DNA from: Nitrospirota bacterium
Lineage (GTDB): Bacteria > Nitrospirota > 9FT-COMBO-42-15 > HDB-SIOI813
Direction: 5' to 3'
Assembly: GCA_016212215.1 (NCBI GenBank)
Contig: JACRGV010000006.1
Location: 1-43,294 of the forward strand
DNA: 43,294 nt
Below are positions 6,252-8,545 of the stretch, piece after piece; the stretch's first letter is position 1, and each line of letters starts with the position of its first letter. The notes beneath the pieces were generated by a model, which ran no database searches, was not told where the DNA came from, and saw nothing but the letters and a program-made list of their open reading frames with translations. The position numbers were made by a program, and so were the translations under genes.

Positions 6252-8015
6252 TCAACCTCCGATAAGAGAATAGATTAGTATAATTATTACAATACCCACT
6301 GCCATCCCGACTGCATAATGCTGAACAAGCCCGGTCTGCACCCTTCTGACAAATGCACTAAGATTTAATATAAATGCAGCTACGCTGTTTACAATCCAGT
6401 CCACTACATTCCTGTCAATCCAGAGTCCGACACGGGAGAGTTTAAAAATAGCGGGTAATATCCCTGTGTTTGATACATCCGTAATAAAAAGTTCATATAC
6501 CCCTATTGGTTTCCTTGCAACCCACATGAACACCATTGTGCCTTTTCTCAAGAACCAGTCTGTATCAAGACTGATAACATGATGCGGGGTAAGCTTCTTC
6601 AACATCACCCAGAAGCCGAGGGCCGTAAACATCAGGATACCGAGTGTGCTTGTTATATGATCCCCTGTATATGCCTCGAATTCAATCGGGAAAGGGAGGA
6701 CACTGTAAAACAGTCCCGGGAATGAACCTATTGCAATGCAGAGTATTGCCGCAATTCCCATGGCAATGAGCATATTAACAGGAGGCTCTTTGGCCTCGAT
6801 CTTTTTATCCTTACCAAAAAACATAAAATAGGGAATTTTAAGTGTAGTTGAAACAAACGTACCTGCCGAGACCATAAGCAGGAGCAATACTAATATAGGC
6901 ATGTGGTGATGATTGGCCGCTCCAAGTATCATGGATTTGCTTATGTATCCTGCAAACAGAGGGAATGCAGATATGGAGAAGCCTCCAATCATATACAGTA
7001 TCAGGGTAACAGGCATGGTCTTATGCAGACCTCCAAGGTCCGAGAGTTTATGTTTCCCTGTCATCTGGATAACTGCTCCTGCCCCCATAAAGAGGATCCC
7101 CTTATAAAGGATATTATTGATCGCATGTGCAGCAGCACCATTCATAGCCAGGTCCGTTCCAAGCCCGATACCAACCACCATATAACCTAACTGGCTTATA
7201 ATATGATAAGACAGCAGTTTACGGAAATCATTTTGCAGTGTAGCGAAACTGACACCATATATAGCCATTATAGTTCCAAATATAATTAATATCTCTGTCC
7301 CTGAATAAGCCCTTAACAATACATATACAGCTACCTTAGTAGTAAAGGCCGACATGAATACTGAACCTGTAATAGTGGCCTCAGGATAGGCATCCGGCAG
7401 CCATGTGTGGAGCGGCGGCATTCCTGCGTTAATCAGAAATCCTATCAGGATCATATAGAAGCCGAGACTGGCGTCATGATGAATAGGTCCAAAAAGGAAT
7501 GAACCGGTGTCGGAATAATGTAATAGTATACCGGCAAGCAGGCATACACCGCTGAATACATGGATGAGGATATACCTGTAACCTGCATTGTATGATTCCT
7601 TCCTTTTTCTGGCAAAGACCAGATAGACTGAGGCAAAGGCCATAATCTCCCAGAAGACAAAGAGGGAGAAATAATCACCTGCAAAAATTACCCCGAGAGA
7701 GCTTCCTATATATAACCATGCGGCTACATGCTGACCGTCATCTTCTACATGAATCGCGTAGATCATTCCGATGAACGACATAATGGTAAATATGTATGCA
7801 AAGATCAGACTGAGCTTGTCTATCTTGCCGAATATCAGGTCATAACCGAGGAATTTATATACGCCGTAAGTCCCTGGAGTTATTGAAACAACCATTGCAA
7901 AGGCCACTACAGGTATCAATAAGAGATACGCCTTCTGAACCTTCCCCTTCAGGAAAGGTATAAGGAATGCACCGGCTATAAACAGTATGGATGGGTGTAA
8001 CCACCACTCAGTCAT
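6252..8015 (-). CDS. NuoL-like / Mrp antiporter-D-like complex I subunit
   Basis: A 587-residue membrane protein of the NuoL/MrpD superfamily. The core has the acidic helix (FVFWEIMAFASVYLVFA), the MPPLHTWLPDAYPEA loop and the lysine helix (FTTKVAVYVLL). The C-terminal part, about residues 500-587 (IDRNVVDWIVN, then RRVQTGLVQHYA and a last membrane helix), resembles the C-terminal extension of NuoL that forms the lateral helix of the membrane arm. I therefore assign it the NuoL position. It is shorter than typical NuoL (about 610-670). The start codon lies inside a 12-bp target duplication made by a repeat insertion just upstream. Confidence 0.85.
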   Translation of the reverse strand: MTEWWLHPSILFIAGAFLIPFLKGKVQKAYLLLIPVVAFAMVVSITPGTYGVYKFLGYDLIFGKIDKLSLIFAYIFTIMSFIGMIYAIHVEDDGQHVAAWLYIGSSLGVIFAGDYFSLFVFWEIMAFASVYLVFARKRKESYNAGYRYILIHVFSGVCLLAGILLHYSDTGSFLFGPIHHDASLGFYMILIGFLINAGMPPLHTWLPDAYPEATITGSVFMSAFTTKVAVYVLLRAYSGTEILIIFGTIMAIYGVSFATLQNDFRKLLSYHIISQLGYMVVGIGLGTDLAMNGAAAHAINNILYKGILFMGAGAVIQMTGKHKLSDLGGLHKTMPVTLILYMIGGFSISAFPLFAGYISKSMILGAANHHHMPILVLLLLMVSAGTFVSTTLKIPYFMFFGKDKKIEAKEPPVNMLIAMGIAAILCIAIGSFPGLFYSVLPFPIEFEAYTGDHITSTLGILMFTALGFWVMLKKLTPHHVISLDTDWFLRKGTMVFMWVARKPIGVYELFITDVSNTGILPAIFKLSRVGLWIDRNVVDWIVNSVAAFILNLSAFVRRVQTGLVQHYAVGMAVGIVIIILIYSLIGG

Positions 8016-8170
8016 TATATCCCCTAACTACCCGAACGGGTTCATAAAAAGCTCCAAATGCAAGGCGAGCAAATCCTGAGAAATGAGGCGTACTTGCAGC
8101 TACGCCGCAATGACGAAGGATGCAGCTCAACGCCGCAGTTGGACTTTTTAGGAATCCGTCAGTCATTATA
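8008..8170. mobile_element. MITE-like insertion with 12-bp target-site duplication
   Basis: The 12-bp sequence TCAGTCATTATA occurs at 8008-8019 and again at 8159-8170, flanking a 139-bp insert (8020-8158). The insert ends are imperfect inverted repeats of about 27 bp: GGTTCATAAAAAGCTCCAA on the left, and the complement of TTGGACTTTTTAGGAATCC on the right. It contains internal hairpin-forming sequence with repeated CGCCGCA motifs. It codes for nothing. The duplicated target contains both the NuoL-like ATG and the stop of the 82-residue gene. Confidence 0.8.
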
Positions 8171-8407
8171 GTAGTCCTCTTTTTTGTACAGCCATATAGC
8201 CCCGATAAATTTCACAATAAATATCAGAAAGACACAGGATACAAAACCGTAAAAGGCGCTCCATCCGGGCGTCTTATCCCACCATGTCTCAGCATGGTGC
8301 CGCTCTACCAGAAAATCCGCTGCAAAAACTACTGCGAGGCTGATATAAAACACAATCTTTATTTTATTCCAGTTTGCAGGGTCACCTATATAATTTATTA
8401 TCTTCAT
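8159..8407 (-). CDS. Small two-helix membrane protein of the nuo operon
   Basis: An 82-residue protein of unknown function with two predicted membrane helices (about residues 17-34 and 52-72), a charged loop (VERHHAETWWDKTPGW) and a charged end (KKEDYYND). It lies between the MrpD-like and NuoL-like subunit genes, so an accessory role in the complex I membrane arm is plausible but inferred. Its ATG is at the end of a dispersed repeat that provides a GGAGGTGAT ribosome-binding sequence 6 nt upstream. Its stop (TGA at 8159-8161) lies in the duplicated target of the MITE-like element, which shows that it once overlapped the downstream gene by 8 nt. Confidence 0.75.
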   Translation of the reverse strand: MKIINYIGDPANWNKIKIVFYISLAVVFAADFLVERHHAETWWDKTPGWSAFYGFVSCVFLIFIVKFIGAIWLYKKEDYYND

Positions 8408-8545
8408 CCGAAAATCACCTCCGGCGGGGTTGGAAAACCCCGCCTATCCCTTTCTACGAGGATAGGCGGGACTTTCTTGTCCCGCTGATTTTCATGGCCC
8501 TTTGTGAACCCTGGTTCATGTGGGTTCATCCAAAAATCTCCATAG
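8407..8545. repeat. Two-hairpin GC-rich repeat (family A, copy 1)
   Basis: This is one of five copies in the window. Hairpin 1 has arms GGCGGGGT and ACCCCGCC; hairpin 2 has arms GCGGGAC and GTCCCGC. Between them CGCCTATCC and GGATAGGCG can pair instead, so the hairpins and a central helix are alternatives. The edge facing the 82-residue gene reads CCGGAGGTGATTTTCGGATG on the minus strand and contains its ribosome-binding site and start codon. The far end joins a family B repeat. Confidence 0.8.

Follow-up and report, generated by a model that had tools for sequence, protein, structure and literature searches.

The ERIC/RU-1 and YPAL/RU-2 sequences of enterobacteria are small mobile palindromic elements, which lie mostly in intergenic regions and sometimes at the 3' ends of genes (PMC2229807, PMC2759123). 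ERIC/RU-1 duplicates TA and YPAL duplicates 3–26 bp of the target, and the reported fusions with these elements alter or extend the C-terminus of the encoded protein (PMC2229807, PMC2759123). MITEAba12 is a MITE of about 113 bp with defined duplications, and a copy of it is able to end a neighbouring coding sequence (PMC6382973). The nearest reported element that sits inside an operon and leaves the operon intact is Chunjie, a MITE of 178–235 bp from Geobacter uraniireducens (Chen et al. 2008, cited in PMC10969869). The likeness to Chunjie is taken from the description in this review, in which the words 'stop codon' and 'overlap' do not occur.

The insertion studied here lies between two genes of a complex I operon in the window (the whole stretch of 43,294 nucleotides that was analysed), in a genome of Nitrospirae type. 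In contrast to the ERIC/RU-1 and YPAL fusions, it leaves both neighbouring proteins unchanged. It also differs from MITEAba12, which has a 9-bp duplication, different ends and a known partner (ISAba12), and whose reported gene end is a truncation. In the literature searched, no report was found of an overlapping gene pair with both ends rebuilt by a target duplication together with an element-borne stop; as most subscription papers fell outside the search, this negative result is weak. We read the locus as a decaying MITE with a 5-bp target duplication and an element-borne stop codon, inserted at an ATGNN(stop) gene overlap, and give this whole reading a probability of roughly 0.87.

The insertion and its empty site

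The perfect 12-bp repeat TCAGTCATTATA recognised in the preliminary description flanks the insert, with 139 nt between its two copies and 151 nt from start to start. No other direct repeat of 12 nt or more occurs in positions 7700–8500. The positions of the features are collected in Table 1. The NuoL-like gene downstream of the insert sits within a complex I cluster. The small ORF upstream of the insert has no match in Pfam or NCBIfam. The end of this gene (8162–8173) encodes YYND in the window, where the proteins of relatives from the family end with YYD; the additional codon directly adjoins the insertion. A second, unrelated inverted repeat is located at 8424–8485, on the upstream side of the small gene in the same operon, with 26-nt arms that are 77% complementary.

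Table 1. Features of the insertion locus in the window and the basis of each assignment
Feature	Position	Strand	Basis or remark
NuoL/MrpD-like gene, 587 codons	6252..8015	-	Proton_antipo_M domain; best NCBIfam NF009310, MrpD-like subunit
12-bp repeat copy TCAGTCATTATA	8008..8019	.	target TGA + ATGAC + TATA of element end
Target duplication copy 2, ATGAC	8011..8015	-	holds the NuoL-like start ATG (8015-8013); family duplication 5 bp
MITE copy, 146 bp, corrected boundaries, TGACGGATTCCTAAAAAG...GGGGATATA	8016..8161	-	114-copy alignment; conserved TGAC left end; 5-bp duplication outside
Degraded outer right end	8016..8032 (about)	-	consensus CTTTTTACGAGGCTGTC; 10/17 positions differ
Shine-Dalgarno-like AGGGG within the element	8021..8025	-	5 nt before ATG; -6.4 kcal/mol with generic anti-SD, empty nuo junctions -5.8
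Inner inverted copy of terminal repeat, CTTTTTATGAACCCGTTC	8034..8051	-	sequence and family alignment
Left terminal inverted repeat TGACGGATTCCTAAAAAG	8144..8161	-	consensus TGACGGCTTCGTAAAAAG
12-bp repeat copy TCAGTCATTATA	8159..8170	.	element TGA + ATGAC + upstream TATA
Stop TGA of the 82-codon gene, best explained as the first three bases of the element	8159..8161	-	TGAC start in 49/59 copies; TGA after the duplication in just 13/59 targets
82-codon ORF	8159..8407	-	conserved small gene preceding the NuoL-like gene; ends with TGA 8161-8159
Target duplication copy 1, ATGAC	8162..8166	-	end of the 82-codon gene up to its stop; identical to copy 2 at 5/5 positions

When the insert and one copy of the repeat are removed, the flanks join as ...TATAATGACTGAGTGG... 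and the two genes overlap by 8 nt (ATGACTGA), as had been proposed. The empty site predicted from this reconstruction exists in relatives. In four genomes of the same family (G003, G004, G006 and G007), the small gene runs 8 nt into the NuoL-like gene, for example as GAGGATTATTATGACTGAGTGG, and the same overlap is kept in eight more distant genomes of the phylum. Among 80 further loci from named genomes, more than half have an 8-nt ATGNN(TGA/TAA) overlap, and the taxa with the ATGNN(stop) form include Nitrospirae, Deltaproteobacteria, Nitrospinae and Methanoperedens. The element was found at the nuo junction in only one of the 80 loci (L104), the junction of which reads the same as that of G005. 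Because the 8-nt overlap is widespread among relatives and the element is present at L104 alone of the 80 loci, the overlap is ancestral and the insert is derived. These results support the earlier proposal that the insertion struck the overlap itself, since the relatives carry the 8-nt overlap as the empty site.

The element family and its target duplication

The insert qualifies as a MITE, a non-autonomous element with inverted repeats, in its size, ends, duplication and copies, and the copy in the window is decaying. It is non-coding and has no gene of its own assigned inside, and both the window copy (146 bp) and the family consensus (155 bp) are well within the size of such elements (<500 bp). 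The genome of the window (G000) has six copies, and 112 matches were found across nine genomes of the family, all close relatives, with at least 40 in G001 and 29 in G005. The copies are dispersed, and empty sites are also present. The consensus was derived from an alignment of 114 copies; it starts with TGACGGCTTCGTAAAAAG and finishes with CTTTTTACGAGGCTGTC, and the left end recurs internally in inverted form ahead of the right end. The family ends are TGAC...GTC, with the end pattern TGAC(G/A)GC(T/C)TCGTAAAAAG. These terminal inverted repeats are present in the family copies, and the right one is degraded in the window.

The six copies in G000 are mostly degenerate, versus the larger number in G001 of the same genus, and the element seems to be inactive in G000 and more recently active in G001. 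Other short elements share only the family ends, and their interiors are unrelated palindromes. Four of them (L277:4001–4134, L278:629–936, L279:4001–4116 and L283:2329–2524) have the ends TGA(C/T)...TCGTAAAAAGTC and mostly clear 5-bp duplications, as if a single set of ends mobilises many different hairpins. A transposase would presumably mobilise the family. In the nine fragmented genomes, no transposase with the ends of the element was found beside genes of PF00665 (rve) or PF01609 (DDE_Tnp_1), and the 20 stretches reached from unpaired ends in a pattern search contained more short elements or lone ends and no two-ended transposon.

The length of the target duplication was determined by comparing every left-flank base with every right-flank base in the 59 copies with readable ends. 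The matching diagonal was confined to positions −5 to −1 versus 0 to +4, at 66–81%, and nothing was elevated beyond 5 bp. The 5-bp flanks matched at 5/5 in 25 copies and at 4/5 in 17 copies (42/59 at 4/5 or better), versus 0.8% and 5.5% (about 6% together) when the flanks of different copies were paired as a control. The 12-bp target duplication of the preliminary description is thus rejected for the family. Other copies do have target duplications, as it had anticipated, but these are 5 bp long and not 12, and the duplicated bases in the window are ATGAC. The targets of the 59 copies also showed a preference: the first duplicated base is A in 44/59, the base just after the duplication is T in 44/59, and TGA is the commonest triplet after the duplicated bases (13/59). 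The element itself starts with TGAC in 49/59 copies.

The window copy is shortened near its right end and has about 84% identity to its nearest relatives. Because it is divergent and its right end is degraded, the 5-bp boundary in the window is read from the family and not from an intact end. The inverted ends described earlier are real but differ from those that were implied: they are TGACGGATTCCTAAAAAG versus the inner copy (8034–8051) and a decayed outer end. The target retains its own TGA at 8010–8008. The TATA at 8016–8019 occupies the place of (T/C)(G/A)TC in other copies and matches the TATA upstream of duplication copy 1. The chance of this match is roughly 1 in 256 and a 4-of-4 extension was observed in only 1/59 other copies, which weighs against the 5-bp reading; the match is taken as a probable coincidence in a decayed element end. 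The TGA that ends the 82-codon gene aligns with the three conserved bases at the start of the element, and the terminal TGA of the element is its best explanation. Both proteins are indeed unchanged, as had been claimed, but not through the duplication alone, which restored only the start codon; the stop codon was probably brought by the element.

Two other explanations of the insert were considered. A true target duplication of 12 bp (or 9 bp), made by a different transposase or by an aberrant event in this species, would account for a repeat that is perfect across 12 bp and includes a TATA needed by neither gene, and also for a right end that departs from the consensus. We regard it as improbable, because the family duplication shows no elevation past 5 bp, the TGA of the element start and the TGA of the target coincide without being duplicated, and the right end in the window (GGGGATATA) is readable as a decayed consensus end (GAGGTTGTC). 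Less probable still is that the insert serves the complex I operon as a conserved regulatory RNA or terminator. The long hairpin that it could form has a calculated energy of −54.3 kcal/mol, but the z-score of the fold is just −1.9, the element is missing from the junction in all other loci but one, and copies are found at unrelated genes. A regulatory RNA was rejected on the absence of the element from nearly all relatives and of any Rfam match to it, the sole sub-threshold chance match falling outside the element. A terminator or promoter role was also rejected; the one terminator-like match in the element (8106–8087, minus strand) has a poor tail. No promoter-like site was found in the element.

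Recurrence at gene overlaps and a probable mechanism

The decaying MITE of the window is not the only copy of its family at a gene overlap. In G005, which belongs to another genus, a full-length element is inserted in the same nuo overlap (...TACTATGAC / TGACGG...GGTTGTC / ATGATTGATTGG, with the element between the slashes). The nuo junction was not found in G001. The znuC-znuB overlap (ATGNNTGA) is filled in G000, G001, G005 and G008 and empty in G003, G004, G006 and G009, with a relic of about 33 nt in G002 and possibly another relic in G007. At L064 (G002) and L067 (G007), about 30–35 nt lie between the TGA and the ATG of znuC-znuB and both genes are intact; these spacers look like element remnants after internal deletion. 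Two more overlapping or touching gene pairs were struck (L235 and L268), and stop codons were struck at L082, L237, L029, L218 and L200. Altogether, 18 of 39 distinct insertions are located no more than 10 nt from the stop codon of a called ORF. Random positions drawn from the same flanks lie this close in 1.7% of cases, and those drawn outside ORFs in 23%. The ORF calling behind these counts is crude, and the window insertion itself was missed since its small gene has fewer than 90 codons. Two sources could account for the bias, namely selection against insertions within genes and the similarity of the target motif to a stop codon.

The probable ribosome sites of filled and empty junctions were also compared. 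Within the upstream gene, empty junctions have GAGG, GGAG or GGGG. At filled junctions, the right end of the element supplies GAGG (AGGGG in the window), about 5 nt before the insertion point. The calculated pairing with a generic anti-Shine-Dalgarno sequence is −5.9 to −6.6 kcal/mol in filled junctions and −5.8 to −7.3 kcal/mol in empty ones. The start codon and a probable ribosome site are thus retained in the filled junctions. GAGG is intact in just 34/59 right ends, which counts against this reading of the insert.

A mechanism can be proposed from these features. The MITE favours targets in which A-N-N-N-(T) precedes T(G/A)A, and ATGNNTGA gene overlaps match this form. Insertion at such an overlap would duplicate ATGNN. 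The upstream gene would then read ...ATGNN followed by the element's TGA, and would keep its stop because this TGA stands directly after ATGNN. The downstream gene would start at the second ATGNN, with GAGG of the right end (AGGGG in the window) ahead of it, and would keep its start and a probable ribosome site. The NuoL-like gene may thus be translated from the new site. The removal of translational coupling, stated outright in the preliminary description, is a putative consequence of the insertion.

Origin of the filled junctions and implications

The recurrence at the same overlaps could come from shared ancestry or from repeated insertion. A single ancestral insertion per overlap, passed down to genera g1 and g5, with the empty sites of g3 and g6 explained by precise loss or misplaced branching, has about an even chance of being correct. 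In the g1 and g5 genomes, each of the two overlaps is filled wherever it was located, and the AU test does not reject a tree that joins the two genera (p 0.135). However, the best tree, built from RpoB, ZnuB, ZnuC and two antiporter-like subunits, places g3 with g5 and g1 apart, with modest support for the g5+g3 grouping. Moreover, the same-site elements from different genera are not distinctly mutual nearest relatives, and the g2 relic falls outside the clade. Independent insertions at the same overlaps are somewhat short of an even chance. They are conceivable since the overlap motif matches the preferred target of the element at the first duplicated base, the following T and the next triplet, and the filled sites are scattered over the best tree. 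But this base preference is loose, and independent strikes on both overlaps in both genera would be demanding. The similarity of the elements was also tried as a test of orthology and decides nothing, because the G005 copy ranked third of 86 against the window copy with near-tied scores. About 150 bp of decaying repeat are too little to decide between shared ancestry and repeated insertion.

Insertions should be shut out of gene overlaps, since they are expected to break at least one of the two genes. A 5-bp duplication together with a stop codon at the element end would make an overlap a safe landing site. A doubtful extension is that the family is adapted to dense operons, with an ANNNT/TGA preference that coincides with ATGNNTGA overlaps, a stop at the left end and a ribosome-binding site at the right end. 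Insertion would then separate overlapping genes into genes that are translated independently of each other, with both proteins unchanged, and the family would act as a natural overlap-breaker which recurs at the same junctions. The filled and empty versions of the two operon junctions are natural variants usable for testing translational coupling, and the insertion is a candidate route by which overlapping genes become separated.
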